This document shows, piece by piece, positions 12,975 to 44,541 of a stretch of DNA of 64,000 bases. The DNA is from Cladocopium goreaui (Eukaryota > Sar > Dinophyceae > Suessiales > Symbiodiniaceae): contig CAMXCT020000809.1 of the NCBI GenBank assembly GCA_947184155.2, positions 55,116 to 119,115 of the forward strand. Direction: 5' to 3'. A model generated the notes under the pieces. That model was not told the origin of the DNA, did not search any database, and saw nothing but the letters and a program-made list of their open reading frames with translations. Within the stretch, counting starts at the first letter, position 1, and each line of letters begins with the position of its first letter. The translations under genes were made by a program, and so were the position numbers.

Positions 12975-13960
12975 TCATGTTGGCAGCGGTAGCATGGCAA
13001 GGATCGCTGCGTTGACTGCCGCTGCATCTGGTGTCATATCCAGGTTCCGATAATTCCAGAGCTTCACATGATCAGCACGAGTCAGCCAGTACACAGTGGC
13101 TGTGCGTTTCATCCAGTTTGGAACATCCCACAAAGGCTTGGGAGCTACCCAATCATCAGTGAGAAGCCATTCCGCTGGTGTGACTTGGTTGGCAATTGCT
13201 GGTGCTAGTCTCAGGGCAGCGCGGAAGTGGCCTGCATTGTCCTCTCCCAAATGCGCCGTGAGCGCCACCACTTGGTACTCAATCATCTCACATGTCAGAG
13301 CACTGTCTGAGAAGACAGGTACAAGGCATACCTGGTCTGTTTGAAGCATGCATTCACTTTTGTAAATCCGTTGCTGGCTGTCCTGTGTGCAGCGGTCAAC
13401 ATGGATGCAGAGACAGGTGGGTGCCTGGCAAAGTGCCGTGCACATTGCCATACTGCAAACAGCTGTGTCAGGTCACTGCAACTGGTGTCTGCCAAAAAAG
13501 GTGTGAATTTCAAGCAAATTGGTGTGCTCTTGCAACCCTGATCGCAAATCCTAATGCTGTCATTTTCAGAGATCCGCTTTTCCCAACGCATGTCAAAAGC
13601 ATCAGAGCCCATCTGCACCAACCATGCTGCAACGAATTCAGCTGAGTCCTGTTGTGCAATGCGCTGTGGGCTAACCGCAGGATCTATCAAACCCCAACAG
13701 TGCAAGATCTGCTGAAACCAAACTTCATCACAAAGATTGATGCAGGTAGCAGGGTTGGTGCAAATAAAATCATGCAACATCTGGCACTGTTTTCCCCATG
13801 CTTTCAGGCTCCACGTCATTGTGGACAAGGTAGTCCACAGCAAGGCACTCGTCGTGGCATTGGCAAAACAAATGTTCCCAGGGTTTTCCATGCTCATATG
13901 TGCAAGTCGTTGCAACAAGAGTTCAGGTGTGAGGCATTGGTACCTCTCAGTTGGGTTCAT
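12975..13960 (-). pseudogene. LINE A USP-type (C19) protease, split by one frameshift
   Basis: The Cys box NPGNICFANA lies at about 13860-13890 and the QQD box QQDSAEFVAAWL near 13640, both in the main frame. A frameshift near 13445 moves to the frame 13451-12975. That frame carries LCQAP, HLGEDNAGHFRAAL (His box, near 13225) and a diverged end without the usual YEDG. Family knowledge: USPs are cysteine proteases that remove ubiquitin. The spacing from Cys to His is about 215 residues, compact for the family. Of the four copies this one has the most typical Cys box but the weakest C-terminus. Confidence 0.75.
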
Positions 13961-16510
13961 TCTGTTTTGGGGGCCACTGCTCCCTTCTTCTTGCCTTTGC
14001 CCTTGCCCTTGGTGGGCGACTGAAGCTGCAAGGTCTTCTGCAGGTTCACTGCCAATGGGCTTTGTTGGAGGCTGTGGGGTCGAAGTGATGTCCCCATGAG
14101 CATCCAAATGGCTGAGTGGCTCAGCTCCGTCAGCAATTGCCACGGGCTGTCCATCCTCATACTCACCTGCAATTTCCATGGTGATACGTCCTGCTTCTGC
14201 CCGGCTGGTAGTGCGTGAAACTTCACTACCGTTTGCATCTCCGTCAGGGCCTCCAGCATGTCTGTGCAGATCTGTTGCAGACGGGTCAGGGTGAGTGGCC
14301 GTCGATTGCTGGGCACCAATGCCTTGTGCCCATGGTCCCATTCCAGATATGGGCACGTGAGGTCCTGTAGCAGCACTTGATTGTGCTGGGCAGCCACCAA
14401 GACTTCGGAGCCCGCTGGCGCTGATCCCAGTTGTTGAATCCGACTGAGAAGAGTATTGAAAAGGACCTGAGCCAGGTGCTGCCTCAGCGGCATGGTCCTC
14501 ACCCTCTGGTGTGCCTGCAGGTTCTCCTGGTGTTGTTGTGCCCATTTCTCCGTGGCTTGTAGCAGCAGTTTCAAGCAGCCTTCTTTCCCTTTGTTGGCGA
14601 AAAAGAGAATGAAGGTGTCCTCTCTCTTCATCGCCTGCAGCTCCCTGTCCATTTGGAGAGCCAATTTGGCCATGAGCGTCACCGCCTGTGCCAGTTGGAT
14701 TTTGTCTGATGCTCCGTGCTTTTGGTGCTCGTCTTGGTTGGAGTCGCCTTTTCTTTGGCGCTTGGGATGAGCATTCTGGGACAATTGGAGTGTCCGATCC
14801 AACATGGGCCCCATCGCCTGGAACGCTTGCCAGACTTGGTTCGTGGCGTCGTCCGCTTCTGGCATGGTCATGTCGGCCATTGGCAGCTCGGCTCAAAAGG
14901 ACAGCAGCTTGGATGAGGCAAGGACACTGGGCCTTGAAATGGGCTTGGACCAAAGCAGATCGTTGTGCATCTGTCAGCATGGTTGGGTCATGAGTGTCTT
15001 CTCTGCGCAAATTGATCACTTGATGACAGGCATAGCATTGCACATCATTGTCACAATGGTTCAGAAACTTGGGCAGCAATTGTTGCACCAGAAATTTCAC
15101 CAACGGGATACCACAGTGGTGTGCCTCATACATGTGAAGGGGCAGCTCTGCCACATGGAATACTTCAGCGCAGAGGAGGCAAGTGGACCTCGTGATGGCA
15201 AGGATGTGATCGTCCAGCCAGAGTTCATGCAACAGTCTGGTGGTCAACAGTCGTTCCAGTCGAAATCGTGAGTCTCTATCCAGTTTTGCAGAAAACATCT
15301 GGGCCAGCTCAGCTTCAGTGGGATCATGTGGAAAGAAAATCACATCCCGCAGTCTCATGTGCTGCATAGCTAACTGGCGTAGAGGATTGCATACATGGTT
15401 GGCTCGATGTTGACTGGTGCTGGGGTTGCAGGTGCAACCCACCTGATTGTACAGCAGGGAGACTAAAATGTGTGTCAAACCCTGGGACGCCGACCACAAC
15501 TGCGAGTGGGCTGCAACCAAGTGGCCTGACAAATCAGCCGGTCGTGAGTACCGGCAACTGCAGTTCTGGCATTGTAAAGTCAGCTGTAAACGTGTATGGC
15601 TGTCACGCAACGTGTCCACCAGTTTGCCAGCACTTGTTGCTAGCTCCCAAGCTGGTTGCACTGTCAAGACTTCTGTTGGTAGATCTGGGGCAAATTGTCC
15701 ACATCTGCCTTGGTTTATATGTGACCGCAAGGACTCAAGGTGCTCAAAGACAGCACCGCAGTGGTTGCATGCGGACTGTCCATCCAGACAGTCCCTGGCT
15801 GGGTTGAACCCAGTGCTGGCCAGTCGATGGTCTTGGGCAAGGTGAGCATGTAGGCCCTCTGTGGTCTCATGGAGGGTCCCACAAATGTCGCAAGTCAAGA
15901 TAGACCTGGCAGCTGCAGCAGTGTCCGTCACTTGGCCTCCACCGTGCACCAATAGGAGGGCTAGTTGTGTCCAGACCCTGCACTGATGTGTGTTGCGGAA
16001 CAAAGCATGGCAGTAAGGACATGGTGTGTCCTCTCCGTATTGGTTTGTGAGCTGCTTTCCCTTAGCCGAGGTGTGTGGCCAAAACGTCGGGTGCAGGACC
16101 TTGATGTGCTGATTCAAGTCCTGCATACGGCCAAGGAACTGATCGCACAGGCAGCATCTGGTGGCCAGATATTCGCAGGCTTGTTGTTCCCGTCTCATAT
16201 GATGCCACGTTGGATTGGCCACAATCGTCAAGATTCTGTCACCCCATTCCTGGCTTCTGAGGTTGCTCAAGTCATGCATGGTTTGTCCCCGCACTGGACC
16301 CATCTTGCTTTGGTGCAAACATTGATTGGACCTGTGGTGGGTCCACCTGCAGAGGTGGTGCAGTGTTGGTCCAACACCCTGGTGGTCCTGGTTGCAAGAC
16401 CTGGCAGCCACGCTGGATGTGAACTGTAAATGATCGCCATGTTGTGAAAGTCTGAAAACAATGCTTGCACTGTGGGAGACCATGTAACATGTGGGATGCA
16501 TGAGAAGCAA
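13295..16510 (-). CDS. LINE A zinc-finger array, linker and USP N-terminal half
   Basis: 1071 codons in the main frame. The first roughly 75 codons are upstream of the frameshift junction and probably not native. From about residue 80 come CCLCDQFLGRMQDLNQHI, CPYCHALFRNTHQC, CDICGTLHETTEGLHAHL, CNHCGAVFEHLESLRSHI, CQNCSCRYSRPADLSGHL, a CTCNPST...HVC knuckle, CLLCAEVFHVAELPLHMY and CYACHQVI. That is at least seven C2H2-like or related zinc sites. A Gly/Ser/Pro-rich linker (about 14880-13960) follows, overlapped by ORF2 in the +1 frame. Then comes the protease part with NPGNICFANA and QQDSAEF boxes. The frame is lost near 13445. Confidence 0.85.
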   Translation of the reverse strand: MLLMHPTCYMVSHSASIVFRLSQHGDHLQFTSSVAARSCNQDHQGVGPTLHHLCRWTHHRSNQCLHQSKMGPVRGQTMHDLSNLRSQEWGDRILTIVANPTWHHMRREQQACEYLATRCCLCDQFLGRMQDLNQHIKVLHPTFWPHTSAKGKQLTNQYGEDTPCPYCHALFRNTHQCRVWTQLALLLVHGGGQVTDTAAAARSILTCDICGTLHETTEGLHAHLAQDHRLASTGFNPARDCLDGQSACNHCGAVFEHLESLRSHINQGRCGQFAPDLPTEVLTVQPAWELATSAGKLVDTLRDSHTRLQLTLQCQNCSCRYSRPADLSGHLVAAHSQLWSASQGLTHILVSLLYNQVGCTCNPSTSQHRANHVCNPLRQLAMQHMRLRDVIFFPHDPTEAELAQMFSAKLDRDSRFRLERLLTTRLLHELWLDDHILAITRSTCLLCAEVFHVAELPLHMYEAHHCGIPLVKFLVQQLLPKFLNHCDNDVQCYACHQVINLRREDTHDPTMLTDAQRSALVQAHFKAQCPCLIQAAVLLSRAANGRHDHARSGRRHEPSLASVPGDGAHVGSDTPIVPECSSQAPKKRRLQPRRAPKARSIRQNPTGTGGDAHGQIGSPNGQGAAGDEERGHLHSLFRQQRERRLLETAATSHGEMGTTTPGEPAGTPEGEDHAAEAAPGSGPFQYSSQSDSTTGISASGLRSLGGCPAQSSAATGPHVPISGMGPWAQGIGAQQSTATHPDPSATDLHRHAGGPDGDANGSEVSRTTSRAEAGRITMEIAGEYEDGQPVAIADGAEPLSHLDAHGDITSTPQPPTKPIGSEPAEDLAASVAHQGQGQRQEEGSSGPQNRMNPTERYQCLTPELLLQRLAHMSMENPGNICFANATTSALLWTTLSTMTWSLKAWGKQCQMLHDFICTNPATCINLCDEVWFQQILHCWGLIDPAVSPQRIAQQDSAEFVAAWLVQMGSDAFDMRWEKRISENDSIRICDQGCKSTPICLKFTPFLADTSCSDLTQLFAVWQCARHFARHPPVSASMLTAAHRTASNGFTKVNACFKQTRYALYLSSQTVL
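13957..14880 (-). CDS. LINE A ORF2, overlapping +1-frame helical protein
   Basis: 307 codons in the +1 frame relative to the zinc-finger/USP frame. It starts at ATG 14880 in the context CAATGG and ends with TGA at 13959-13957. No known domain is recognised. The predicted product is mostly helical and charged. Segments such as LRQHLAQVLFNTLLSRIQQL, CPYLEWD, VVKFHALP and SAIWMLMGTSLRP match equivalent positions in the ORF2 proteins of B, C and D. The C-terminus is very basic (KGKGKGKKKG). The stop codon overlaps the first main-frame ATG of the protease as ATGA (13960-13957), which suggests coupled termination and restart. Function unknown; an RNA- or particle-binding role is a guess. Confidence 0.68.
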   Translation of the reverse strand: MADMTMPEADDATNQVWQAFQAMGPMLDRTLQLSQNAHPKRQRKGDSNQDEHQKHGASDKIQLAQAVTLMAKLALQMDRELQAMKREDTFILFFANKGKEGCLKLLLQATEKWAQQHQENLQAHQRVRTMPLRQHLAQVLFNTLLSRIQQLGSAPAGSEVLVAAQHNQVLLQDLTCPYLEWDHGHKALVPSNRRPLTLTRLQQICTDMLEALTEMQTVVKFHALPAGQKQDVSPWKLQVSMRMDSPWQLLTELSHSAIWMLMGTSLRPHSLQQSPLAVNLQKTLQLQSPTKGKGKGKKKGAVAPKTE

Positions 16511-18728
16511 AAAGATTTCTGTTCATGCGCTGTCCATGAGCCTGCGTGCAATGTCTCCTATAAGTGGCTACATTGGTCGTATTAAAGTCACACAGCTGGC
16601 ACTCAAAAACAGGCTCTGGCGGCAGGTCGTGCTCTGGGTCAGGGTGCACTGGGACAGCTTGGCCTGTGTTGTTCTGGACTGCCAGAAACTCTCGTAAATG
16701 GTGCAAGTGACTCCAGTCCAGAGTGTGAACAATATCAATGTCAGGAACTTGCATCAGTCGTTGAGTGACCGACAGCAACTGGCGTTCGACAGTCTGTCCA
16801 AGCCGGGTGAGTGGCAAAACAACCCCTTGTCCAGTGAGCGCTGTCTGGTGGCTCTGTCCAGTACGATATGCATGGTTCCCAATGATCTGCCTGAGCATGC
16901 TATACATGGTTTGCTGTAATTTCTGGGTGCCATGTGCTGTGATGCCAACTGTGCAAATGCTGTAGGTTAAGACAGGATATACGCAAGTGGTCCATAATTG
17001 GAGTCTCTGGTTTTGGGACAAGCCTCGTTTGCCTTTAAGCCAGCGGCTAAGGCGATGGAACGCAAGCTGGGACAATTGAATGCGGTGCATTGTGGTTTGA
17101 TCCTCAAAATTGTTGTAGGACAACACCGTGCCAAGGTATTTGACCTTTCTCTCAACTGGTATCCAAATGATCGGACGATCAGCAGTTTCAAGCTTCAACC
17201 ATTCTTTTCCATCTCGAAAAGCAGTGAGTGTTTGGCGCAATTTTCGGTAGGAGGTGCCAGTCATTGCCACCAACGCAACGCACTTGCTCGAATTGATAGT
17301 CATGCCAAAGTCTTGCAGCAGTTCCAGAGTGGTGTACAATTTGGATAAAAGGTCATGAAATTCAGTGACGGAAAAGAAAACATCGCCCATCTGACCATCA
17401 TCCGCATAGAAATTGATGCATCTCTGAATCCACTGGCAGTCAACTCGTTGGCTGAGAGCTTGCAAAAACAGCAGAACGTAAATGTTCCAAAGCAGGGGAG
17501 CAGCCTTGCATCCCTGTCTCAGGCCGCGCCCAACAGAGATCCCCTCATCAATCCCATGTGAAAACAAATGATATCTGGTATCTTGGTGCCACATGGTCAG
17601 AAGTTGCGCTGCAGGGGCAGGAATACCAAGTTGGAATAGTTTCGAAAACAATTGAAGACGGCTTACCATGTCAAAGGCTCTTTCAATGTCCAAAAAAATA
17701 CCAATACCACCTGCAACTTTATATCGGCAAGCTTTCAACATTCTCTGAAAAGGAGTGGTTCTCTGCATGGCTAACAGGGTTCTAATCTCACGGCAGTGCT
17801 GGGTGACGCGCAGAAGTGCATCTTGTGTGGAGCGCTTGGGCAGGTACGACCAAATAGGCCAAGGTATGATGATGGGCATCAATGCTTGTTGGGCCTGTGA
17901 GGCTAGAAGTCCTACCACTGCTTTGCCCAGTGGCTCTTGGAGAGCCAAAGGGCGCAATGCCCGCGGGTGCACAGGAGGTTTATTAGGTTTAGGGATTAGG
18001 ATCATCCAGCTATCTTTAAACCACGTAGGTATAAAGGGATGGTCACCTATCCACCGAGTCCTAAAAACTTCATAAAGGGCTGACGCAATCTTGGGGGCAA
18101 TTGATTTCCACACAATTGCAGGGGCGCACGGTCGTGCAACCGCTTTGACTGCCGGAATATGCGTCAGCGCATGCATCAGGTCTGCCTGAGTGAAAGGCAG
18201 GTCATGGACAGCCACTCCAGGCGTCTGGAATGTTGTAGGTCCATGCCATGTTTCCTGAATGAAATGACGTAGCATCGCAGTTTCCTCTGGGGGACTGGCA
18301 ATCTGTCCCTGCTGATTTCGGAGTTGCATTCTGCGTACAGGTTGTTTTGGCGAAAACTTGTTTATGATCTGAAAAAGGGAATGTGTGTCATGTTTCAGAG
18401 CGGCCACTGTTGCACTGTCAATGACTTCCTGAAATCTAAGCTGTCGGACACGCCAGGCATGGGTCTTGGCATGCCGTTTCAAAACCAAAAACCTACAGAC
18501 ATGGTGCCAGGCTTTGAACAGGTTTCGAACAGTCACAACAGCAAATTTCGAGTATGCTTTCCTATGTTCCCATTTGTTGAGAATATGGGTTTGGGCAAGC
18601 TTGTCAGGTGCATTTGATGGCTTCTTGTTGTGTGGAAAAAATTGATGGAACCCTCTGCAAGCAATCTGGTGCAAATCTGAAAGAAGTGTTTCATCTGAGC
18701 TCGAGACTTGTTGCAGGCGGTGCAGCAC
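16272..18728 (-). CDS. LINE A reverse transcriptase and first zinc fingers
   Basis: 818 codons. An alpha-helical basic connector comes first, with SPKQPVRRMQLRNQQG (residues about 125-140). RT follows: SWMILIPKPNKPPVHPRALR, GIGIFLDIERAFDMV (motif A), GLRQGCKAAPLLW (motif B) and FYADDGQMG (motif C, YADD at about 17400). The thumb follows, with YLGTVLSYNNFEDQ. The C-terminus has CQLCDFNTTNVATYRRHC and CKHCFQTFTTWRSFTVHI zinc fingers. The active-site residues are intact. The frame is lost after the second finger, near 16280, and the protein resumes in the frame 16510-13295. The ORF alone would give an RT without the rest of the finger array or the USP. Confidence 0.9.
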   Translation of the reverse strand: MLHRLQQVSSSDETLLSDLHQIACRGFHQFFPHNKKPSNAPDKLAQTHILNKWEHRKAYSKFAVVTVRNLFKAWHHVCRFLVLKRHAKTHAWRVRQLRFQEVIDSATVAALKHDTHSLFQIINKFSPKQPVRRMQLRNQQGQIASPPEETAMLRHFIQETWHGPTTFQTPGVAVHDLPFTQADLMHALTHIPAVKAVARPCAPAIVWKSIAPKIASALYEVFRTRWIGDHPFIPTWFKDSWMILIPKPNKPPVHPRALRPLALQEPLGKAVVGLLASQAQQALMPIIIPWPIWSYLPKRSTQDALLRVTQHCREIRTLLAMQRTTPFQRMLKACRYKVAGGIGIFLDIERAFDMVSRLQLFSKLFQLGIPAPAAQLLTMWHQDTRYHLFSHGIDEGISVGRGLRQGCKAAPLLWNIYVLLFLQALSQRVDCQWIQRCINFYADDGQMGDVFFSVTEFHDLLSKLYTTLELLQDFGMTINSSKCVALVAMTGTSYRKLRQTLTAFRDGKEWLKLETADRPIIWIPVERKVKYLGTVLSYNNFEDQTTMHRIQLSQLAFHRLSRWLKGKRGLSQNQRLQLWTTCVYPVLTYSICTVGITAHGTQKLQQTMYSMLRQIIGNHAYRTGQSHQTALTGQGVVLPLTRLGQTVERQLLSVTQRLMQVPDIDIVHTLDWSHLHHLREFLAVQNNTGQAVPVHPDPEHDLPPEPVFECQLCDFNTTNVATYRRHCTQAHGQRMNRNLFASHASHMLHGLPQCKHCFQTFTTWRSFTVHIQRGCQVLQPGPPGCWTNTAPPLQVDPPQVQSMFAPKQDGSSAGTNHA

Positions 18729-20076
18729 ACTGTCACCAATCTCGTCAGCAAGGTTAAGAGTCTCCAGGTGTCAGTGTTCAGTCGAAAGGCCAGGTGGCCC
18801 AGCTTTTTCTGGCCAGGACTGATGGTTTGTGCCGCAGTTGCATGATCTTGAGGAATCCACATCTTACGAAGTAAACCAATCATGGGCACATGTCCAGTGG
18901 TGCCACAAAAAGGGGCATCCCAGGTATATTTGACCTGTTTTGCTACACCATCTGCCATGGTTTTGCGAGTGATGATGAAGTCAATGCGAGAGCTGCAGTC
19001 GTCATGGATGTAGGTGGGACCCAATTCACTATGCCATGTATTAAGTGCAACAAGGCCATGAGTGCGTAAAACAGACATGAATCTACCCTGATCTTCATGT
19101 TGTGCTCCACGTGTCTGGGCCCCGCGCCACCGGTAGTGGCTTGGGCCAGCATGCGATTGATGTTGCATCAGGCTGGTATTGAAATCCCCCAGCAAACATA
19201 GGGTGTTCCGACTGGCAAGGCTCTGGAGCAATGCATCTAATGCGTTCCACCAGGTTGCTCTGTCCTGTCTGCGTTGTGTCGTGTGGGCTTGTGTGTGCTG
19301 GTAGCAACACACCACGTCAATGGACCTGTGCTTGAGCTGAATTTGTACTTGCATCAAACGTCCTGGAATGACAACCCTCCAACGCAGATTCTGTGCAGAG
19401 CAAAGTTGAGTGGAAACAATGCAGAGAATCCCAGAGCCTCTGTGATTGGCTTGTCCTGTGTGGACATGCATCCATCGTCCATCTGTCCATTCACTCTCAA
19501 ATGTCATGCGCGTCTCGCTGATGACAGCAAGCTCAATGTGATTCAGTTCCATCCAAGATCCAAGTTTTCACCTCATCTAATCTGGGTGCAGCCAGACCAC
19601 CTGCATTCCAGTTGAGCAGGCGCAATCGCCTGGAATCTTGGTTCCGCTTGTTACAGGCTTGCAAGGCAGGGGCAAATGAAGGCTCTGCCGGCTTCAAAAT
19701 CTCAGGTGATTGTTGCCTCAAGCATTTGGGGAAATCTTGGGGAGTATATATACCAAGCAAGGCCATAGGTGCATGCCCGTTTATAGGCTCTTTTGATGCT
19801 TCTCTTGGTTACCTGATTCTGTGCAGGGTGCCATGGGATAGCATGGTAGCTGGTTGCTGGTCGCATGTCATGTCGCTTTGCGTCAGCTTTTTCAACTAAG
19901 CCTTCTTGCCAGCTAGTTGACGCTTCAACGTCTCCCATGACTGAGACGTAACCCTCAGTGAAAAATCTCTCACAGCAGCGCATCAGTCGCCAATCAGCTG
20001 CCATCACAGCTGCCAGCGCAGCCGCCATCAGCAGCCATCTCCACAGCCGCTGCAGCAGCCAGGCACCGCAGCGCAA
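18533..20076 (-). pseudogene. LINE A N-terminus and EEP endonuclease, three frames
   Basis: The frame 20076-19702 ends in the basic segment KRSIKRAYKRACTYGLAWY. It corresponds to the KRSYRRAL..HG.TWYKGK segment that precedes the endonuclease in the other copies. The frame then shifts near 19700 and again near 19550. LRLLNWNAGGL (19600-19625) is EEP motif 1. ISETRM gives the catalytic glutamate, LLGDFNTS (about 19180) the D-x-N pair, SRIDFII the next motif and GHVPM the last. These are the landmarks of an APE-type nuclease that nicks target DNA for target-primed reverse transcription. The frame 19552-18533 then continues about 200 bases past the point where the RT frame takes over (near 18650), so the tail of that ORF is out of register. 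Confidence 0.83.
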
Positions 20077-20153: not shown

Positions 20154-21058
20154 TCAGTCCTGAGGGATGTCTTCCATGTTCTCAGCTCGATCGTCCATTG
20201 GTGTGATCGTGCTGAAGCTTCGAAAAGCTCGTGGATCTGCTGTCTCCATAGTCCTGACATTGAAAGAAGTTGGACGTGTACACCAGAACATCACACAGTT
20301 GCGCAATACAAACTCTGGAAGAATGTCAACTCTGTCTGGTGGGCGTCCGTCTTCATATAACATCCACTGTGTGTTGTACCGCAGTGCCGCACGATAGTGG
20401 CCAGATAATGGTGAGGATCCAAGGTGAAAAATGATTGCACAAACTGCAAAAAGGTTTCGAAAATCACTGCACCCTCCAGTCCGCTGAAGTACGGAAATCT
20501 GACAGAATTGTGAGTGATCTCAATCTTCTGTTGACACTTTGTGAATGTTTCAGGATTGAAACGGTCAATCATCAGAATCAATTGATACCCCACCTCCTCA
20601 GCTGCTCTGCAAAGACCTCGGGGATTGTGCCACAAATCAATGAGTGATTGAAGCTGGACAGAATCGGCCAGATGATCAACATACGCAAGCTGAATTGGTG
20701 AGAATCTTGATCCTTTTTCGGAAGGCATGGAGGCGTCCCCAGGTGCCAGTCGTTCTGGCATTGTAACCCAGCTGCAGTGGAGAAAGTGAGGCTGCATGAC
20801 ATTGAGCAAATAGGTGGCAAATTCGCAAACATCATGTTGGATTCTGAATGACTCCACTGACCACTCCCCTAAAAGAAGCCACAAAAACGGATCAAATTTG
20901 GGCAGATCCATTGGGATGTGGCCTGCCAAGAAAACGTTTCGAAGCAACTCATATCCATGTACCCACTGTGAAGGGTCATCTCCATTCGAAAGCAAAGTCA
21001 ACCAGGCTATGCAAATCACCACAACATTGGCGAAGCAGGCTGTGCCGGTGCTGTTCAT
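20154..21058 (-). pseudogene. LINE B USP-type (C19) protease, split by one frameshift
   Basis: Cys box at about 21030-21055 and QHD box near 20830 in the main frame. After a frameshift near 20420 the frame ending at 20154 gives LSGHYRAALRYNTQWMLYED (His box plus the acidic residue of the triad), GRPPDRVDILP and LRNCVMFW. The C-terminal lobe is therefore preserved and typical, but in the wrong frame. Confidence 0.82.
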
Positions 21059-24724: not shown

Positions 24725-24727
24725 GAT

Positions 24728-28008: not shown

Positions 28009-28032
28009 GTGTGTGTGTGTGTGTTTTTTTTT
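28009..28032 (-). repeat. A9(CA)n tail of LINE C
   Basis: Plus strand GT repeat 28009-28023 followed by T9 at 28024-28032. Read on the minus strand it is the A9 end of LINE C followed by a short CA tract, after which LINE B begins. Confidence 0.8.
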
Positions 28033-32920: not shown

Positions 32921-33105
32921 TCCAAGGTATGGAATTTGTGGGACCAGTCTGATCTGAAAGGGTGTGCCATGCCGACTTGGGATACAAATGAAAGTGCCAT
33001 CTTTTGTCCGTTTGACATAGCGCTTGTAAAGCTTGAACTTGCCCTGCCCATGGAGCTTCAGGATCGCAATTGTTTTGGCACTATTGATGGTCAGGCCGGC
33101 ATCAA

Positions 33106-36100: not shown

Positions 36101-36286
36101 AGCAGCAAAATGAAGAATGGCAGCAGCGCCGCAGCAGCGTCACGTCCAGCAGCGCACAGCAGCAGCCACAAGCAGCGCCGCGCACCGCAACGAACTCTTA
36201 AGGGGCCGTGCCAGCGAACAAGGTAACCAAGAACGGTCGAGTGGCACCCTGCTGGACTCCTCGCCCTTTGAACCGCCAGGGGCTTG

Positions 36287-36317
<31 letters not shown>

Positions 36318-36423
36318 TTGGGTGGGTGTGTGTGTGTGTGTTTGTTTGTGTGTGTGTTTGGGTGTGTGTGTGTGTGTTTTTTTTTACTACCCCTTTAACA
36401 CCTTGTTGCGTGTCAGTAGGCAA
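33106..36423 (-). CDS. LINE C membrane N-terminus, EEP endonuclease and RT
   Basis: 1105 codons. The first about 45 codons translate the CA tract and are not real; the true start is upstream of the first hydrophobic stretch, without an obvious ATG. Four hydrophobic segments: residues about 95-120, 130-158, 172-195 and 215-232. GWAPIVLFTGLF and LLLDNEPLS match D. KRSYRRALHRISTHGYTWYK precedes the nuclease. EEP: VFSWNCGS (about 35356), LLQETHW, LLAGDLNTS, SRIDYL and NHVPLVG, all intact. RT: LTFLCKPGKSGRSQSELRPI, GGFLLSLDLTKAFDSV, TQRGIRQGCKAAPILW and TTYADDFCLH (about 33195). The frame is lost at KVGSFLTC, near 33125. Confidence 0.9.
36209..36222 (-). promoter_or_regulatory. 5' conserved motif of LINE C
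   Basis: CTTGTTCGCTGGCA on the minus strand, followed by CGGC as in B. It lies about 65 bases from the CA-tract boundary. Confidence 0.5.
36285..36383 (-). repeat. A9(CA)n tail of LINE D
   Basis: GT repeats interrupted by GGGTG and TTTG (36285-36374), then T9 at 36375-36383. On the minus strand: end of LINE D, A9, then a 90-base CA-rich tract, then the start of LINE C (GCCCCTGG). Confidence 0.85.
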
Positions 36424-36846
36424 GCCCTCAACAGCATGTTACTGTTGGCCATGGCATCTACGGATTTAGACGTCCGCCGTAGTGCTCATTGTCTTACTCA
36501 AGCTACCATATCCCTAAGGACAACATGGAAAATAAAAACTAAGTCACAGCACCAAAAATTCACAGGTAGTTGTTTGTGAACAGTGCCGGCAAAAGTTGGA
36601 AAAAGGTCACTCAGCCGCTGCTCTCACCAGCTGCAAGGATGGCAAAGTGCCACAACAGCAGCGCAGCAGCCACGTCAGCAGCAAGCGCAAAAGCTTCCGC
36701 AAATCAGCGCCAGCGCAGGGCCGCAAGAGAAATGCTCAGCAGCGCAAGATGAAGGCAGCGGCTTAAATGCATTCAAGTGGCAGGTACAGATACTGAATCC
36801 ATAGGATCGTGACGGTGTCACCATGTCCAAGTGCTGCGCATGAGAG
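36384..36846 (-). other. 3' UTR of LINE D
   Basis: About 460 bp, GCTGC-rich in the part next to the protease stop, then a less biased region ending GGGGTAGT before A9. No coding potential. Confidence 0.6.
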
Positions 36847-39606
36847 TCAAGGCACAGCGCTCGAGGCTTCCAATGTAGGGAATGTGAGATCTCCCGCATC
36901 CATCGTCCTGGCATTGTGAGGGGTCTCACGAACAAGCCATAACAGCATGCAGTTTCTGTGAACAACCTCTGGCAATCGCACAACGCGTTCAGGGACTTTG
37001 GCATCGTCATAAAGCATCCAATGACCCTGATATTTCAATGCTGCACGCCAATGTCCAGTGGTTGTATCTTCTCCCAAATGGTATACCACCCCACAAATGA
37101 CAAAATGTTCCATGTGAATCTCCCCAGCAGAATTGGTAAAGAATGGAAATGAAATGTCACGCTGAAAGTGTACCAGTTGAGTCAATTTCATTGAAGTGTC
37201 ATCTCTGTGTCGGTTGAGTTCCAGCACCAATTGACAGCCATCCTGCGTAGCTGCTCGACAAAGACCTAAGGGGTCGTGCCAGGTCAAAATGAGTGTCTGG
37301 AGGTCACAAACATCTGAAGAAAAATCAGTGAATGGTAAGGTGATCGGAGTGAAAGCAGTCCCTTTTTCCCCGTCCAGCTGATGTGCAAATGGTCCATCTG
37401 TGAAAGCTGGTTTTGTCACCCATGAGCAATCAAGAAATCCAGGTCGTGTGAAGTTGAGTATGTAACTGCAAAAGTCACAAGCGTCCTGTTGCCTTTGCAT
37501 AAATTTCTCAATTGACCAATCCCCTGTGAGAAGCCACTCAAAGGGACCGAAGGTCATCAGGTCCAAGGGAATGGCACTGTTGTGCACCAAACTACGCATC
37601 AAAATGAATCCACCGTTCCAAAGGTCAAATACATAGCCATCCGCCAAAAGCATGAGCCATGCTAAGCATTGTAGCACTGCGTTGGCCGCACAGGCCTTGC
37701 CAGTGGGATTCAAGAGGATGCGGATCACCCCCATCACTTGGCCTTCAACAATTGCTGCGCCAAAGGAGATCTTGTCAGGCTTTGTCCCCGGAGTCTCACC
37801 TGGATGAGCTGCCAAATAGAGTGGTGTGCCAATTTGTCCAACTCGAAGTAGAGCTCTGTGTTGTGACGCAGACTCACCGTCCATAGCCACGGAATGGGCT
37901 GAGAAATTTCCTGCCCCTCCAACGGCTTCCGAAGGGCATGAAAACGTAATGTCACCCGATGATCTGACATCAGCCGAATCATGTTGGAGAGGCTCTGTTT
38001 CACCTGTTGCGCTGGTAAGCCAGGAGCATCCGTTGGTTGAAGTTTCTGGGCCTGATGGTTCCAACGGAGATACGGCATCGTCCTGGGCTGATCCGGGTTG
38101 ATCAAATGATAAGTCACGCAATCCTGAAACAAATCCTCCGTCGGTGCCGCAGCCAGCAGTTTGTCCAGGCGCAACTCCAGAGCCTGTAGCATCGTCTTGG
38201 CCAAAAGGTGTCTGAGCGGCTCCTTCTTCTCCGTCGCATGCCAGGTTTTGCTGGTTTGCATCAACGTTGGCAGGATGCTGCCCTGGCCTGGGGCCATAAA
38301 CACCATGAACTCCGATTCTTGGAGCAAGGTGTTGAGGCCGTCTTCGTGCCTCAACACAAGCCTCGTGAGCGTGCTCAAAAGCTCCGTCGGGATCGTCGTT
38401 GTCGAGGACGAGGATCCCTGTCTGGACAGCTCCTTGTGTTTCTTCTGGTCCTTCTTCTGCCTTTTGGTGCCGGGCTGCTGCTCTGGGGCAATGCCGAGGG
38501 CTTTCAGCTGGTCTGAGGTCAGTAAGTTGCCCCAGATTTTGCTGGCTGAGTCGATCCCCTCGTTTGCCTCGAATGCCAAGTCCATTGGTGAGATACACGG
38601 CAAGGTTGAGCAAGGCAATGCACTGTTTTAAGTGCCGGGAGCAGCCGCAAAACTGACAGATGTCATGGCAGCGCAACGCAAGTCTGTGATAGCACATCAA
38701 GGTTTGCATCTGTAGAAAATTGTGTTCCCGATGCAAATGTTCCTCAAATTTGAGTGCTGTAAAGAAACATTTGTGGCAGCACAAGCATCTGTAGTTCAAA
38801 CTTTCACCCAGCATGGAATCTTGAATCTGCATGAGTCCACATTGAGCAAGCAAATCAACTGTGAGGCCAAAGGTGTCTGAGGACGTCACGTTGTATTGCC
38901 ACAGTCGCAGTTCTTCCTGACGCTGAGCAGCTCGGATAGCCTCATGCGTCGGCCACACAAATGGAACCAGTGCTGGCTTGCTCCACACAGGCATCATCAA
39001 AAGCAGAGCCATCTGAATGACAAAAGGGCAATGCAGCATGTGCTCAAGGGGACACGTCTGAATGTCATAGTCCACTTCATAAGATGGCAGCACTTCATTG
39101 CACCAGTCACAATGCCAGTCAGTAGATTGCAGGGCCGCATAGACCACACCCAATTGCTCAGCAAGATATGTGACACGGTCTGCCGTGATGCGATGAAACA
39201 CAAACAAATGAGCCTTGAGCGTCTTCAATTCCACTTCTTCCTGACAGAGAAGGCAGCGGGTGCGTAGCATCTGAGTCAGTGCTGGATCTTGCCAAAGTTT
39301 GTGAAAATTTCTTGTCATCAAGGCCATTGCAATGCGCTTCATGTCATCATCAGGCAGCAGGACACTCAACAGGTCTGTGAGCTGGGTCGAGGAGAAGGGC
39401 CAAGGTACCACAACCTGCCAGTTGAAAGATGCAGCCAGCAAAGCCAATTGAGTAAGCCCAACACACTCGTGATGCATCGCTCCCCAGCCCGGACCAGGAT
39501 TGCAAAAGCATCCAAGTTCTGCAAACATGCTCCATTGAAACAAATGCTTCAAATTTTGAACCTCTTGCAGCGAAACTGGGTGGACGGCATGAAGATGATG
39601 GTTGAG
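36847..39606 (-). CDS. LINE D last zinc fingers, linker and USP protease
   Basis: In frame after the TAG. The rest of the interrupted finger (LNHHLHAVH) is followed by CFCNPGPGWGAMHHEC, CLLCQEEVELKTLKAHLFVF, CDWCNEVLPSYEVDYDIQTC, CLCCHKCFFTALKFEEHL and CQFCGCSRHLKQC. The low-complexity linker is main frame 38590-37740. The protease begins at ATG 37734 and runs 295 codons: NPTGKACAANAVLQCLAW (Cys box), RQQDACDFCSYILNF, LQTLILTWHDPLGLCRA, TTGHWRAALKYQGHWMLYDD (His box and acidic residue) and ERVVRLPEVVHRNCMLLW. A is unusual directly after the catalytic C, where F or Y is normal. Catalytic C, H and D are all present. Confidence 0.88.
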   Translation of the reverse strand, partial: LNHHLHAVHPVSLQEVQNLKHLFQWSMFAELGCFCNPGPGWGAMHHECVGLTQLALLAASFNWQVVVPWPFSSTQLTDLLSVLLPDDDMKRIAMALMTRNFHKLWQDPALTQMLRTRCLLCQEEVELKTLKAHLFVFHRITADRVTYLAEQLGVVYAALQSTDWHCDWCNEVLPSYEVDYDIQTCPLEHMLHCPFVIQMALLLMMPVWSKPALVPFVWPTHEAIRAAQRQEELRLWQYNVTSSDTFGLTVDLLAQCGLMQIQDSMLGESLNYRCLCCHKCFFTALKFEEHLHREHNFLQMQTLMCYHRLALRCHDICQFCGCSRHLKQCIALLNLAVYLTNGLGIRGKRGDRLSQQNLGQLTDLRPAESPRHCPRAAARHQKAEEGPEETQGAVQTGILVLDNDDPDGAFEHAHEACVEARRRPQHLAPRIGVHGVYGPRPGQHPANVDANQQNLACDGEEGAAQTPFGQDDATGSGVAPGQTAGCGTDGGFVSGLRDLSFDQPGSAQDDAVSPLEPSGPETSTNGCSWLTSATGETEPLQHDSADVRSSGDITFSCPSEAVGGAGNFSAHSVAMDGESASQHRALLRVGQIGTPLYLAAHPGETPGTKPDKISFGAAIVEGQVMGVIRILLNPTGKACAANAVLQCLAWLMLLADGYVFDLWNGGFILMRSLVHNSAIPLDLMTFGPFEWLLTGDWSIEKFMQRQQDACDFCSYILNFTRPGFLDCSWVTKPAFTDGPFAHQLDGEKGTAFTPITLPFTDFSSDVCDLQTLILTWHDPLGLCRAATQDGCQLVLELNRHRDDTSMKLTQLVHFQRDISFPFFTNSAGEIHMEHFVICGVVYHLGEDTTTGHWRAALKYQGHWMLYDDAKVPERVVRLPEVVHRNCMLLWLVRETPHNARTMDAGDLTFPTLEASSAVP
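37734..38585 (-). CDS. LINE D ORF2, overlapping +1-frame helical protein
   Basis: 284 codons from ATG 38585 (context CCAATGG) to TGA at 37736-37734. An upstream in-frame TTG or CTG could extend it by about 11 codons. It begins MDLAFEANEGIDSASKIWGN. A Lys-rich patch (about residues 55-70), STLTRLVLRHEDGLNTLL, FQDCVTYHLINPDQPRTMPY, VTLRFHALRKP, IPWLWTVSLRHNTELYFEL and SIWQLIQVRLRGQS follow. Every one of these has a counterpart in B. The stop overlaps the protease ATG as TGATG. No known family. Being in the +1 frame of a coding region and conserved in four diverged copies is the main evidence that it is real. Confidence 0.75.
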   Translation of the reverse strand: MDLAFEANEGIDSASKIWGNLLTSDQLKALGIAPEQQPGTKRQKKDQKKHKELSRQGSSSSTTTIPTELLSTLTRLVLRHEDGLNTLLQESEFMVFMAPGQGSILPTLMQTSKTWHATEKKEPLRHLLAKTMLQALELRLDKLLAAAPTEDLFQDCVTYHLINPDQPRTMPYLRWNHQAQKLQPTDAPGLPAQQVKQSLSNMIRLMSDHRVTLRFHALRKPLEGQEISQPIPWLWTVSLRHNTELYFELDKLAHHSIWQLIQVRLRGQSLTRSPLAQQLLKAK

Positions 39607-41706
39607 CTAGTCACCAGAGTCAAATCTCTCTCCACAGAGTTGGCACTGAATTGTCAACTGAAGCCGAAGGTCACGCTTCTTGTACAGCAATTTCGAATGC
39701 CCGTGCCAGATAAGCGGCTCTATCTGCTCAGCTATGCCCAGAAGCATGTCAGGAGGTAAGGCCATGACTTGCGGCATCTGTTGACGTTCATGCTCCAGCC
39801 TCAACAGGGTAAACTGTAGAAAAAGAGGACAGATATGTTTGTTGTGCCGCTTGGGATGACAGACGCATCCATATTCAGGTTTGTGTAGTCTGTCAAGGTC
39901 AATGGCTCTCCTTTCACTCTCGTGCCATTCTGAAGCATGGTTGAGTTTGATATGGCGAGAAAGGTCTTGAGGACGCCCAAAGGACTTCTGACACTGAGCG
40001 CACCTGGTGGTCAAGAAGCGCCTCACCGACTCCAGCTGCAGCAGGTCCGGGCAAGAGTTCAGCTCAACTGCCTGGTTGATATGGCAGTACGTCTGAACTG
40101 TTTCAGGGTCAAGTTGGTCACAAGCCTCAATTGCATCATGATAGTCCCGTAGATGTCTTTGAAGGCCATGAGCCGTGGAGTAGCCCTTCCGGCACACAGG
40201 ACATGTCAAGGGTTCACTGTCTGCAGGGCCGGTGTCAAAGCCCATGAAAGTCATCAGCATGGACATCTGTCGAATGAGCATGCACTTGTGATACTGTTTG
40301 AATGGTTCTCCACAAAGAGCACAAGGAGACGTAAGAGGCCATCGAAACAAGAGTTGCTCATTGAGACTCTCATGCCGTCTGAAGACTTCATTATGTGCCG
40401 TTTGGAAATGAAGCAGGAGTCCCTTGGTGGTGTTGCAGAAGAACTTGCAAATACCACATCTGGTGTGAAAGTATGCAGCAAGTTCCACATCCATGGATAG
40501 GGCCTCCAGATTCAGACAGCAAGCATACTGCAGAAGTTCATGTACTCGTACACGATGTTCGACTTCCTCGTCAGGGTCATCAGCCTCCTGTCCAGTGACA
40601 TTGCACACAAATTGAATATGATTTCGAAGTCCATGCCAAGTAGTAAAATGCTGTTTACATCTGATGCATGTTGGAATGCCATTGTCAAAGTCTCGTGTGC
40701 TCACTGGGCGTAGAGGGCCTGATCGTTCATCATGAACAGTCGTCAGGTGCCTCCGCAGTGCACTGAGTGTAGGGTACATCTGGTGACAATGAGGGCATTC
40801 CTGTTGAGTATCAGGCTCCAAGGTTGTCACTGGGTCCAGTCGATTTCGAAGTTGGTCCCATGCTCTGAGCAACACCTGGCAACGTTCAGCATAATCAATT
40901 GGTGCCATTCTGCGCAAAATGTCATGTGAAGCAAGTGTGTCGTCTCTCAGCGCATCACGTTTGGCTGCTTTGCGGCAAAGCTCCAAAAGAAGCACCAGGG
41001 GATCGGCGATGTTGTGTGAAATCAAACATTCATGATGTGTGTTGCGATGCAAGTGCACTGGTTCTCTGTAGAGTCTTCTGAGGTGTTTCATGCATGCAAT
41101 ATCCAAAAGTGCAATCGTAGCGACATTGAACCCTATGGGTATTAAGCTGTATCTCATGCTGGCAAATACACATTGTTTCCAGAGAAGTTGTTTACGGTGA
41201 AAACTGAAACCTTTCTTGGTGAAAATCCAACGGGAAAGCTGTTGGCCGGTTTTGTCCCCTGCCTTGATCCTGGCAAGCATGGTTTGACGTTCAAAATTCG
41301 AGAAGCTGATAGAAGCGCCCAAAAATTGCTGTCGTGCTACCAATCTGATCAGTGTATGTGTGCCATCTTGTCGTGGTACCAAAAGCCATGCACCCCCATT
41401 TTTGCGTCTCTGGATGAAACGTCGTTGGAGTTTGGGAGCCTTCGTTCCCACCAGGCGCAGCATCACTGTGGTTTTCTCAAAATTGATAGTAAAACCATGA
41501 TTTTCCAGGATATCAAAAACCTTCCCCAGTGAACTCAGCAAGCTCAGAAAGTCTTGTTCAGAGTGAATCACCTGATGGAAATTGCAATCGTCAGCAAAAG
41601 TGGTTGTATTGTCTAACATCCAATCTTGTGACGTGGCTGCAGCAATATCATGAAGCAAAAGTGCTGCCTGAGCTGTCCACAAAGCTGGAGCAGCTTTGCA
41701 GCCTTG
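39607..41706 (-). CDS. LINE D second half of RT and zinc-finger array
   Basis: Continues in frame after the TGA. QGCKAAPALWTAQAALLLH (motif B), TTTFADDCNFHQV (motif C as FADD, about 41595), FTINFEKTTVMLRL and FLGASISFSNFERQTMLARI (thumb). Fingers from residue about 280: CPHCHQMYPTLSALRRHL, CIRCKQHFTTWHGLRNHI, CGICKFFCNTTKGLLLHF, CALCGEPFKQYHKC, CPVCRKGYSTAHGLQRHL, CAQCQKSFGRPQDLSRHI, CVCHPKRHNKHIC and CQLCGERFDSGD, where a TAG interrupts the finger before its histidines. Zinc fingers after RT may bind element RNA or target DNA; not shown here. Confidence 0.9.
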   Translation of the reverse strand, partial: QGCKAAPALWTAQAALLLHDIAAATSQDWMLDNTTTFADDCNFHQVIHSEQDFLSLLSSLGKVFDILENHGFTINFEKTTVMLRLVGTKAPKLQRRFIQRRKNGGAWLLVPRQDGTHTLIRLVARQQFLGASISFSNFERQTMLARIKAGDKTGQQLSRWIFTKKGFSFHRKQLLWKQCVFASMRYSLIPIGFNVATIALLDIACMKHLRRLYREPVHLHRNTHHECLISHNIADPLVLLLELCRKAAKRDALRDDTLASHDILRRMAPIDYAERCQVLLRAWDQLRNRLDPVTTLEPDTQQECPHCHQMYPTLSALRRHLTTVHDERSGPLRPVSTRDFDNGIPTCIRCKQHFTTWHGLRNHIQFVCNVTGQEADDPDEEVEHRVRVHELLQYACCLNLEALSMDVELAAYFHTRCGICKFFCNTTKGLLLHFQTAHNEVFRRHESLNEQLLFRWPLTSPCALCGEPFKQYHKCMLIRQMSMLMTFMGFDTGPADSEPLTCPVCRKGYSTAHGLQRHLRDYHDAIEACDQLDPETVQTYCHINQAVELNSCPDLLQLESVRRFLTTRCAQCQKSFGRPQDLSRHIKLNHASEWHESERRAIDLDRLHKPEYGCVCHPKRHNKHICPLFLQFTLLRLEHERQQMPQVMALPPDMLLGIAEQIEPLIWHGHSKLLYKKRDLRLQLTIQCQLCGERFDSGD

Positions 41707-44541
41707 TCAGATGCCACGTGTCGTCCGAAATTCCCTTTGGCAACCTTTGTGTTCAAAAGCAAAACTTGTACTGTTGTAAATGGATTGCAATAGACCCAAC
41801 AGTGAATCATGGACCCCAAAACGCCGCAGACCTGCAAACAACCGTTTCCGACACACTGTGTCGAAAGCCTTTGAAAGATCAAGGCTAAGTAAGAGACCAC
41901 CGCCCAGTTCACCAGGGTGAAGTCCATATGCCTGTTGATGCACTGGGTAGTGATGCATTTCAATCTTGGTCCGGACCGCCCTACAAAAAGTGGCAATACG
42001 AGAAAGAGCCTCATCAGCACCACGCCCAGGCAAGTAAGCAAATTGTGGAAGACCTTGCAGTGTCGGCCAGAGCTGCTCATGTAAATGTTTGGATGCCATA
42101 CCCATGACCGTCTTTCCCGAAGGTTCCAACAGTGCAATCGGCCTGAGGTCTCGAGGGTGGTGATTCTTCTTGGCCGCCTTTGGCAAGAAGCAGAGAAATC
42201 CCTGGCTCCACACGCCTGGCAGGTTGTTATGCTGACTGCGCTGGTTACAGAATGGGTCCAATAGATCAGCTGCTGACGTGGCCACGCACCTCCGAAATGG
42301 TGATGGCGCAAATCTAGGGTCCAGTGCCTTAGACAGTGGCAATTCAGCAAGGCCATGTGCAAGCTCGGTGCATGTAAAAGGCCACTCAAAGGCACAGGCT
42401 GGATCAGGAGGATCATCAGAATGATACAGCTGCTGAAACCAAGCTTGCAAGGTATCAGCCGCCTGTTCAGGATGCATCAGGTCACCAGTCTCGGTTCTCA
42501 AATGGATTTTGCTGAAATTCTGTTTGGGTGCAATGTCACGTATTGCCTGCCACATACGAAATGGATCTCTGGCATGTTCAGCAAGTAGCGCGGCATCATA
42601 CACCTTTTGCAATCGTCGTTTCCGGGCTATTTTGGAAGCCTGTTTCATCATCTTTCTAGCCTTGCTACGTTGTTGTATGTGAAACCAAGCCTTGAAGAAG
42701 GTCTGCAGTCCAGGTGTCCGCAATGCACGCAAGCACATTGTATGAGCCTGGAAGGTTCTAAACGGCGTCACATCAAGTTGATCCAGTAGGGAATCTTTTG
42801 GTTTGTGGGCCGTAGGTCTGAATGAGTTCAAGGTCTCATGCAGGTTGTCAAGCGCATGTTCTGTTGCAGGAATGTTCTCAACTTTTTGTTGAATGTGATC
42901 TTGCAAGAGTCGGACATCTGCTGTTGGATGTTGCCATTGATGACAGAGATCAAGCCTTTGAGATCGTGTCCATCCCATCGGTCTGCTGGAGGTACTGTGA
43001 TGCCAGACCTTCAAAATCGATGTCATCAAGGGTACATGAAATGAGCCTTCTGTGCAAATAAGTGGAAAGTCATGCAAATAAACAACTTGCTTCGATGTAG
43101 CGTCAGCCATATGTTGTCTACAACAGATATAGTCGATACGTGAATGTTGGGCCTGTGAGGGAAACTGATACGTGGGGCCAAGGTCCATTGTCCATGTGTT
43201 CAAAGCCGTCAATGAATATGTTGTCAAAACATTCATGAGGAGGTGAGCATCCGAATGTTGAGGCCCCCTACTTCTGCCCAGGTCCATGGCGTACTGGTCC
43301 AGGCCCACTGCGGCAGAGCGTCGAAGAAGGGAAGTGTTCAGATCCCCCATCAACAGGACAGTGTTGCGCCGAGGCAGGGTATCCAGCACAGTAGAGATCT
43401 GTTGCCATACTTCAGTGCGGTCATCCATACGATGTGGAGAATGAATGTGCTGATAGATGTTGAGAATATCCAAACTGCGATGAGTGCCATGAACTCGAAC
43501 ATGTAAAACTCTACCAGGGATTGGGTCATGCCATGACAAATCATCAGAAGAGCAAAGTTGTTTGGATATCATACACATCAAGCCTGCCGAAGGTCCACCG
43601 CTGCCACTGTGCACGATGTGATAGTGCTGTTGTGTCCATTCCGTCGTAAATGGCCACTTCGTCTCCTGGAGGCAGACCACGGCGATCTGTTGCTGTTGCA
43701 GCCAGAGCTGAAACATGTCCCACTTGTCTGCACCAAGTCCCCCACTATTCCAACAAAAACAGGTAAGCCTGTGTCTAAGCTTCCTTCCTTTGGGGATTGC
43801 ATTCGGTGGAGAAGGTTGAGTATCTTCTATGTCAGTGGTCTGTGTACCCAACTGTTTGGCTGAAAATAATTTGCCCCTCCACCATGTGTATCCATGTTGC
43901 GACGCCCTACGTTGAGCACGCAGAAAACTCCGTTTACCTGTTCCACTTGATCGTCTGGTAGCTTGATTCGGTGCGAACACCACATGGGGCTCCTCTGCAT
44001 GAGCTTTCACGGAGTATGCAAACTCCGTTCCCTCGTTGCGCATGCCCACAACGAAACCCTCACCCCCGGCAGAAGCACTGCAGTGATAGGAAGGCTGTCC
44101 AAACGCCAATGTCAAAGCAATGCAAGCGCTGAGACAATACTTCTGCCCTCGGAATTGGGACCGAGAGGTGGTCGATGTCAGGCGAGTCCGTGATGCTGAA
44201 ATGTCAGGGTGTCGAATTGATGTGGTCAAAAATCCAAGTGGAAAAATTGTATCCCAAATCCAATCAAAACTTAAGGGAGCGTTGTCCAGCAGAAGCTGAA
44301 AGGAGAAACCAAAAAGGAGATGCCACGTCAAATTCAAGTGTCCACAAATAATGATCCACAGGCCAGTGAAAAATATCGTGGGAGCCCACCCCATGCACCA
44401 GGATAGGGAGCCACCCCTACAGATTAAGGCCAGTTCAAGAGAGCAGCAAGATTGTAGAAGGCGCGATGTGGTAGAAGTCGAAAAAGGTTCACGGGATCTG
44501 CAGCGATTCCACCACCAGCGCCGCACAGCAGCACAGCGCAC
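41707..44541 (-). CDS. LINE D membrane N-terminus, EEP endonuclease and first half of RT
   Basis: 944 codons. Hydrophobic segments at about residues 48-64, 70-86 and 135-150; SLSWCMGWAPTIFFTGL and LLLDNAPLS are shared with C. GKRSFLRAQRRASQHGYTWW precedes the nuclease. EEP from residue about 258: CFCWNSGGL (about 43750), LQETKW (E), LLMGDLNTSLL (about 43340), SRIDYICC and FHVPLM, all landmark residues present. DIAPKQNFSKIHLRTETGD connects to RT: FLPKAAKKNHHPRDLRPIAL, GGLLLSLDLSKAFDTVCRKR (motif A) and EFRTTRGI. There a TGA replaces what is CGA (Arg) in the RGIRQGCKAAP motif, a likely C-to-T change at a CpG. Confidence 0.92.
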   Translation of the reverse strand: MRCAAVRRWWWNRCRSREPFSTSTTSRLLQSCCSLELALICRGGSLSWCMGWAPTIFFTGLWIIICGHLNLTWHLLFGFSFQLLLDNAPLSFDWIWDTIFPLGFLTTSIRHPDISASRTRLTSTTSRSQFRGQKYCLSACIALTLAFGQPSYHCSASAGGEGFVVGMRNEGTEFAYSVKAHAEEPHVVFAPNQATRRSSGTGKRSFLRAQRRASQHGYTWWRGKLFSAKQLGTQTTDIEDTQPSPPNAIPKGRKLRHRLTCFCWNSGGLGADKWDMFQLWLQQQQIAVVCLQETKWPFTTEWTQQHYHIVHSGSGGPSAGLMCMISKQLCSSDDLSWHDPIPGRVLHVRVHGTHRSLDILNIYQHIHSPHRMDDRTEVWQQISTVLDTLPRRNTVLLMGDLNTSLLRRSAAVGLDQYAMDLGRSRGPQHSDAHLLMNVLTTYSLTALNTWTMDLGPTYQFPSQAQHSRIDYICCRQHMADATSKQVVYLHDFPLICTEGSFHVPLMTSILKVWHHSTSSRPMGWTRSQRLDLCHQWQHPTADVRLLQDHIQQKVENIPATEHALDNLHETLNSFRPTAHKPKDSLLDQLDVTPFRTFQAHTMCLRALRTPGLQTFFKAWFHIQQRSKARKMMKQASKIARKRRLQKVYDAALLAEHARDPFRMWQAIRDIAPKQNFSKIHLRTETGDLMHPEQAADTLQAWFQQLYHSDDPPDPACAFEWPFTCTELAHGLAELPLSKALDPRFAPSPFRRCVATSAADLLDPFCNQRSQHNNLPGVWSQGFLCFLPKAAKKNHHPRDLRPIALLEPSGKTVMGMASKHLHEQLWPTLQGLPQFAYLPGRGADEALSRIATFCRAVRTKIEMHHYPVHQQAYGLHPGELGGGLLLSLDLSKAFDTVCRKRLFAGLRRFGVHDSLLGLLQSIYNSTSFAFEHKGCQREFRTTRGI

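Follow-up and report, generated by a model that had tools for sequence, protein, structure and literature searches.

Ubiquitin- and SUMO-type cysteine proteases have been described in several kinds of mobile elements. Among long interspersed nuclear elements (LINEs), a Ulp1-like cysteine protease is found in nematode NeSL and in one Utopia element, and related families, Togen, show specificity for (TG)n (available sections of PMC4640811). OTU or Ulp1 proteases occur in Ginger1, Helitron, and Mutator transposons, and a T. vaginalis protein combines transposase_11 with Peptidase C19 (available sections of PMC2836005). In dinoflagellates, SymbioLINE-Dnmt of Symbiodinium is a LINE (Exo_endo_phos plus RVT_1), old in its genus, that has captured a host-type enzyme (PMC5890265, in part). 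Here we describe four LINE-like elements, A to D, on the minus strand of a 64,000-nucleotide stretch of the Cladocopium goreaui genome (the window; assembly GCA_947184155.2, contig CAMXCT020000809.1, forward-strand positions 55,116 to 119,115). We read them, with a probability of roughly 0.55, as members of a dinoflagellate LINE family that resides in (AC)n microsatellites and whose open reading frame (ORF), comprising an endonuclease (EEP), a reverse transcriptase (RT), and zinc fingers, ends in a complete ubiquitin-specific protease (USP) that may shield the element's own complex.

NeSL and Utopia resemble the present elements in that they insert site-specifically and that a cysteine protease of the ubiquitin/SUMO type is fused to the LINE ORF, but there the protease is Ulp1-like and N-terminal, the endonuclease is restriction-like, and the available sections of the source mention no nested ORF (PMC4640811). 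The Ginger1, Helitron, Mutator, and T. vaginalis proteins are likewise fusions of mobile-element proteins to ubiquitin-type proteases, one of them C19; they belong to DNA transposons, not LINEs, and for C19 there is mention of just one protein in the sections available (PMC2836005). In SymbioLINE-Dnmt the captured enzyme is instead a DNA methyltransferase in an upstream ORF, and the word "ubiquitin" occurs nowhere in that paper's main text (PMC5890265). A term search of an article on accessory domains of retrotransposons (PMC6338049) found ubiquitin unmentioned, and the available part of a study of dinoflagellate retrogenes (PMC12014239) contains nothing on a LINE-linked USP. In our searches of the open-access literature we found neither a LINE described as carrying a USP nor a comparable nested ORF; subscription papers, Repbase, and preprints were outside the scope. 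A preliminary description of this DNA had mentioned OTU- and ULP1-type proteases in some retroelements, and the NeSL and Utopia work bears out the presence of Ulp1-type proteases in other LINEs; it was silent on the second-frame ORF between zinc fingers and USP and on the (AC)n insertion sites.

A LINE-like element with a complete USP domain

The architecture that the preliminary description gave for all four elements (EEP, RT, zinc fingers, C19 protease) stands, with the qualification that some Pfam scores fall under their cut-offs and that every window copy is decayed. For EEP, B and C exceed the cut-off and A narrowly misses it (23.0 versus 24.5 bits); for RT, A, B, and C exceed it, while the scanned part of the D RT, cut by a stop, scores 26.6 versus 29.6; the zinc fingers of C and D exceed theirs, and those of A and B are weaker matches. 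The database protein P0004, 96% identical to D, holds EEP (44.7 bits), RT (66.8 bits), and UCH (26.0 bits) in one chain. EEP and RVT_1 share an ORF in the window, in database proteins, and in genome copies, as in LINEs with an APE-type endonuclease, and L1 ORF2p ranks first among the PDB matches to the family profile.

The protease carries the Cys, QQD, and His boxes of USPs. The Cys box is NPGNICFAN in A and C, NPTGKACAAN in D, and STGTACFAN in B; the QQD box is QQDVAEF in C, QQDSAEF in A, QQDACDF in D, and QHDVCEF in B; and the His box is SGHYRAAVR...YEDG in C, SGHYRAALR...YEDG in B, TGHWRAAL...YDDA in D, and AGHFRAAL...TDDW in A. The motifs previously read by eye (NPGNICFANA in A and C, QQDVAEF in C, SGHYRAAxR...YEDG in B and C) are present, the first as NPGNICFAN, and the catalytic Cys and His said to be kept in all four are kept in 4/4. 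The profile search and structure comparison proposed at that stage also came out in favor of a USP. Against the Pfam UCH family (PF00443; cut-off, 23.9 bits), C scores 27.0 and D 31.2 bits; the His half of A reaches 17.6 bits, under the cut-off, and B gives no match because its frame breaks before the His box. UCH is also above the cut-off in database proteins P0004, P0008, P0012, and P0029 to P0031. A profile-to-PDB sequence comparison matches the domain to USP46/12, and the predicted structure has a USP fold, with USP12/46 as its nearest solved structures (ranked entries whose Z values differ by <1 being counted as tied). With USP12 and USP46 (5k16, 6jlq) it shares the complete fold, the three boxes, and the DDD motif; it differs from them in being fused to an RT and in sequence, with 17 to 18% identity over seven USP12/46 structure entries. 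It is also compact, at ~285 residues versus ~350 for a USP catalytic domain (PMC10867860, in part). Profile, profile-to-PDB match, and predicted fold together support the identification of the domain as a USP.

Among 19 aligned sequences, the catalytic Cys, the His, and the fourth catalytic residue, Asp, are each kept in 19/19, and the third catalytic position is variable (Asp in 11, Asn in 5, Glu in 2, Gln in 1). In a set of 22 copies the corresponding counts are 22/22 for Cys, 21/22 for His, and 22/22 for Asp. The fourth Asp is relied upon by USP1, 15, 40, and 48 (PMC10867860, in part). The LINE USP is very probably catalytically active.

Fusion to the reverse transcriptase and probable common descent

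A scan of the C. goreaui genome (1,165,616,438 bases) gave at least 134 UCH matches (149 of 301 candidates scored), from which we examined the 18 that lie in frames of at least 2,000 residues, plus two others. At 17 of the 18 long-frame loci, a stop-to-stop frame of 2,071 to 3,020 codons contains EEP, RT, zinc fingers, and USP, which answers in the host genome itself the earlier suggestion to look for RT-linked UCH domains in dinoflagellates. EEP is whole in 16 of these 17 copies, a stop lying within that of L024. Loci L011, L029, and L030 contain no LINE domain; they represent other UCH groups and were left out of the LINE counts. These and similar loci form repeated groups, in one of which many copies have two TAG codons inside the match.

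The fusion recurs in databases. The whole D protein as query found 29 proteins, and single proteins with EEP, RT, and UCH together are P0004, P0008, P0012, P0029, and P0030. With the D USP alone as query, the domain is found in 16 of the 29, including 8 without a precomputed UCH mark, and Pfam adds P0031; 11 of the remaining 12 end in or before the linker that precedes the USP, and P0032 gave no USP match to this query. P0029 to P0031 are distant relatives (24 to 26% identity) and yet retain RT and UCH. Profile scans of IMG/VR and GTDB contigs confirmed no relative, the D USP having two weak matches in IMG/VR (L001 and L002).

RT and USP distances are strongly correlated across 19 taxa (r = 0.968; 0/2,000 permutations as high) and in a core of 15 taxa (r = 0.944). 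Trees built with FastTree for the two domains are similar in topology and share the groups (P0029, P0030) and (P0031, A), while differing in where P0018 falls and in branching order inside the B group. For the USP, NG86 estimates over 7 pairs give nonsynonymous divergence (dN) of 0.23 to 0.48, synonymous divergence (dS) of 1.7 to 2.9, and ratios of 0.10 to 0.28, which are rough, dS being saturated. By these estimates the USP is under purifying selection. The simplest reading is that the USP was gained once before the lineages split and thereafter inherited with the RT. The congruence of distances and the NG86 ratios thus agree with the preliminary view of the domain as ancestral and constrained: most likely it was acquired once, in the ancestor of the LINE family, and has been held by purifying selection.

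A second gene nested between zinc fingers and USP

A conserved ORF of ~280 codons overlies the linker between zinc fingers and USP, in the +1 frame, in 4/4 window elements (broken in two in C). Between B and D, identity is 58.7% in the nested frame versus 30.5% in the main frame and 28.7% in the unused frame, and differences at the three codon positions are 0.39, 0.26, and 0.57. The main frame is also open there: A, B, and D have no stop in it, against expected numbers of 4.3, 10.1, and 9.2, respectively, under synonymous permutation; zero stops arose in 0.7% of permutations for A and in 0/5,000 for B and D. A search with the nested protein found 27 relatives, 19 covering at least 93% of the query, and the ORF is found in copies down to ~25% identity. 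All 17 genome copies contain it, always in +1 phase; these copies had been selected by their main frame and are unbiased for the nested frame but biased for the main one.

The reverse test began from the nested protein, which has at least 137 genome matches (137 of 349 candidates scored), 5 of them containing a stop. Twenty of the 137, spread down the list, were taken with the nested frame stop-free and the main frame not a criterion. The main frame proved stop-free over the nested ORF in 19 of the 20, against a permutation expectation of 5.1 to 11.6 stops, while the third frame has 10 to 25 stops and is stop-free in 0/20. Past the nested ORF, 15/20 have no main-frame stop in the rest of the sequence retrieved; of the others, 1 has its stop in the nested part and 4 in the USP. 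The USP follows downstream in 20/20, in the main frame in 19.

NG86 estimates for the nested frame (8 pairs) give dN of 0.10 to 0.43, dS of 0.93 to 2.0, and ratios of 0.11 to 0.34, whereas in the main-frame linker dN exceeds dS in 8/8 pairs. In bin means covering 189 of 190 pairs, nested-frame identity exceeds that of the main frame, which in turn does not exceed the unused frame; in single close pairs main and unused frames differ by 0.01 to 0.04, in either direction. We considered an extra amino-acid constraint on the main-frame linker and rejected it: for B versus D it is weak (30.5% against a null of 27.4%; 32/3000 as high), and it is absent from the bin means, the one remaining pair being 98% identical. 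By the NG86 and identity contrasts, the nested protein is therefore the constrained product, and over it the main frame is retained as an open link that bridges zinc fingers to USP. With both frames open beyond chance and the nested frame under selection, there is strong evidence for dual coding, a statistically strong case for a cellular mobile element.

Pfam searches with 24 members of the nested family gave nothing above the cut-off and no Transposase_22 (which we take to be the Pfam name for the ORF1p family) up to an E value of 0.5; a PDB profile search likewise gave nothing above the cut-off and no L1 ORF1p chain up to an E value of 1. The predicted model may bear a modest structural resemblance to LINE-1 ORF1p, a protein with an RRM-like fold, a helix ahead of it, and a C-terminal domain. 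Compared with human LINE-1 ORF1p (2w7a, central RRM domain), the protein has no detectable sequence similarity, and its ORF lies inside ORF2 in another frame, whereas the human ORF1p is located upstream. There is perhaps an even chance that it is the element's ORF1p-like RNA-binding partner. The region upstream of EEP has no Pfam domain above the cut-off in the five copies scanned, and the nested gene prompts the question of how such LINEs obtain a partner that binds RNA.

Proposed role of the tethered protease

TRIM41 ubiquitinates human ORF2p, leading to its degradation and suppression of L1 (PMC10716122, in part). In the mechanism we propose, the USP, tethered to the RT, would strip ubiquitin from the element's replication complex (ORF2p plus the nested ORF1p-like protein), and host E3 ligases and the proteasome would thereby be unable to remove that complex before target-primed reverse transcription is completed. 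That an active, tethered USP acts in this way is a tentative proposal, at slightly less than even odds. Translation of the nested protein might begin at an internal AUG or depend on a switch of frame. The fuller arrangement is also a little short of an even bet: a putative ORF1p-like RNA-binding gene wholly inside ORF2 (+1 frame, between zinc fingers and USP), a USP joined to the RT by second-frame read-through of that gene, ~280 codons encoding two proteins, and one transcript supplying replicase, RNA chaperone, and ubiquitination shield. The fusion suggests that such elements resist or rewire the host ubiquitin system. A deubiquitinase (DUB) fused to a LINE RT would make a ubiquitin arms race between host and non-LTR retrotransposon directly testable, with the single catalytic Cys as the handle.

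Alternatively, the tethered USP might act where the element integrates, on chromatin or repair factors of the host (ubiquitinated histones, PCNA, or FANCD2-like factors), so that the target opens more readily or the second strand is repaired more easily. Such a role would suit a DUB whose fusion partner has EEP and zinc fingers, and it would suit the nearest solved structures, USP12/46, which have histone substrates; but structural rank among USPs predicts substrate poorly, and dinoflagellate chromatin is histone-poor. We regard this as unlikely, although a tie between ubiquitin-type proteases and DNA repair in transposition has been proposed for Ginger, OTU, and Ulp1 (PMC2836005, in part).

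It is less probable still that the protease works like those of viruses, cutting the polyprotein of its own element or a ubiquitin-like fusion. Its place at the C terminus of so long a main frame would allow this, but USPs cleave after ubiquitin C termini, a Pfam scan of P0004, P0008, and P0012 found no ubiquitin-like family (E up to 0.01), and we know of no precedent for USP self-processing of polyproteins. Retention as a non-catalytic ubiquitin-binding or folding module would accommodate the variable third catalytic position and the His missing from 1/22 copies, but is very improbable given Cys, His, and fourth Asp invariant in 19/19, the last a residue on which USP1, 15, 40, and 48 depend (PMC10867860, in part). 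Chance adjacency of a host USP gene or pseudogene to decayed LINEs, which the decay of the window copies and the breaks inside the USPs of A and B might suggest, is refuted by the 17 single-frame RT-zinc finger-USP fusions, the correlated RT and USP distances, and the USP after the nested ORF in 20/20 copies. Protection of the element's own complex by a tethered DUB is the simplest of these readings.

Element layout, insertion sites, and neighboring sequence

A and B each have one frameshift within the USP, while in C the USP is unbroken and frameshifts lie elsewhere; D is a single frame, 2,575 codons long and interrupted internally by two stops (Table 1). The database protein P0007 differs from D at two positions over 1,595 residues, with Arg at D's TGA, and terminates at D's TAG; the TGA is therefore private to the D copy and the TAG is not.

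Table 1. Positions of element features within the window
Feature	Position	Strand	Remarks
D main frame, EEP-RT-zinc finger-linker-USP	36847..44574	-	interrupted by TGA 41707 and TAG 39607
D EEP (APE-type) endonuclease	42940..43809	-	limits, D reference segment; EEP by Pfam in 96% identical P0004
D reverse transcriptase	41095..42354	-	limits, D reference segment
D zinc-finger array	38485..40704	-	
D nested ORF, 283 aa	37734..38585	-	+1 frame versus main ORF
D USP domain	36850..37749	-	UCH 31.2 bits
D 3' terminal A9, then (CA)n	36377..36385	-	
C EEP and RT	33106..36438	-	RT C-terminal part in another frame, 32264-33151
C zinc-finger array	29372..32056	-	frame terminates in C-terminal part of nested ORF
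C nested ORF, split over two frames	29408..30186	-	
C USP domain, unbroken	28488..29387	-	UCH 27.0 bits
C 3' terminal A9, then (CA)n and B 5' end	28024..28032	-	
B EEP region	25456..27756	-	
B RT (24728-25543) and zinc-finger array (22280-24727)	22280..25543	-	single frame containing TAG stops
B nested ORF, 278 aa	21076..21912	-	
B USP, two frames	20235..21088	-	Cys part 20447-21088, His part 20235-20450
A EEP	18533..19567	-	just under Pfam cut-off
A RT and first zinc finger (weak)	16272..18770	-	
A nested ORF, 307 aa	13957..14880	-	overlapping main frame 13295-16522 open
A USP, two frames	13077..13891	-	Cys part 13445-13891, His part 13077-13451
A 3' terminal A9, then (CA)n	12750..12758	-	
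(AC)n tract separating D (3' end) from C (5' end)	36285..36377	-	C start ~36281, AAGCCCC
(AC)n tract at D 5' end	44662..44878	-	D start ~44658, AAGCCCC
Insertion of elements in (AC)n microsatellites	12377-12758, 28004-28032, 36281-36385, 44658-44878		fixed orientation

The 3' ends of A, C, and D (3/4) are A9 followed directly by (CA)n, and the 5' ends of B, C, and D (3/4) join (AC)n to AAGC, all in one orientation; the B/A junction is without the repeat. Among the 17 genome copies, 13 show the 5' junction and 8 the A-run followed by (CA)n, the others being unmatched or beyond the fetched stretch. A 3' A-run and defined ends are again features of APE-type LINEs. Insertion into (AC)n with fixed polarity accounts for the head-to-tail array in the window, and it may shape coral-symbiont genomes.

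N-terminal to EEP, D (~43809-44394, minus strand) and database relatives have a similar region (MGWAP...LLLDNxP...), in which 19-residue hydrophobic stretches exceed the threshold in 6/7 proteins but not in the D-like P0007. Copies L013, L019, and L026 have ~590 to 700 open codons upstream of EEP, with short repeats (FCGGA, GVGS) and nothing that Pfam matches above its cut-off. P0030 and P0032 carry a Tpt1/KptA RNA 2'-phosphotransferase domain upstream of RT, P0030 together with EEP and UCH.

Elsewhere in the window, an RT-like ORF (RVT_1, under the cut-off) and, after it, one that encodes a Myb DNA-binding domain (53168-55092, plus strand) are perhaps a different type of LINE, and 3478-4374 (minus strand) is a fragment of an RVT_2 reverse transcriptase, which we take to be of the Copia type. 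Just upstream of D, a 240-bp unit is present in two copies with 91% identity (44869-45108 and 45994-46233); by eye it contains an inverted repeat, and it may be a small non-autonomous element.

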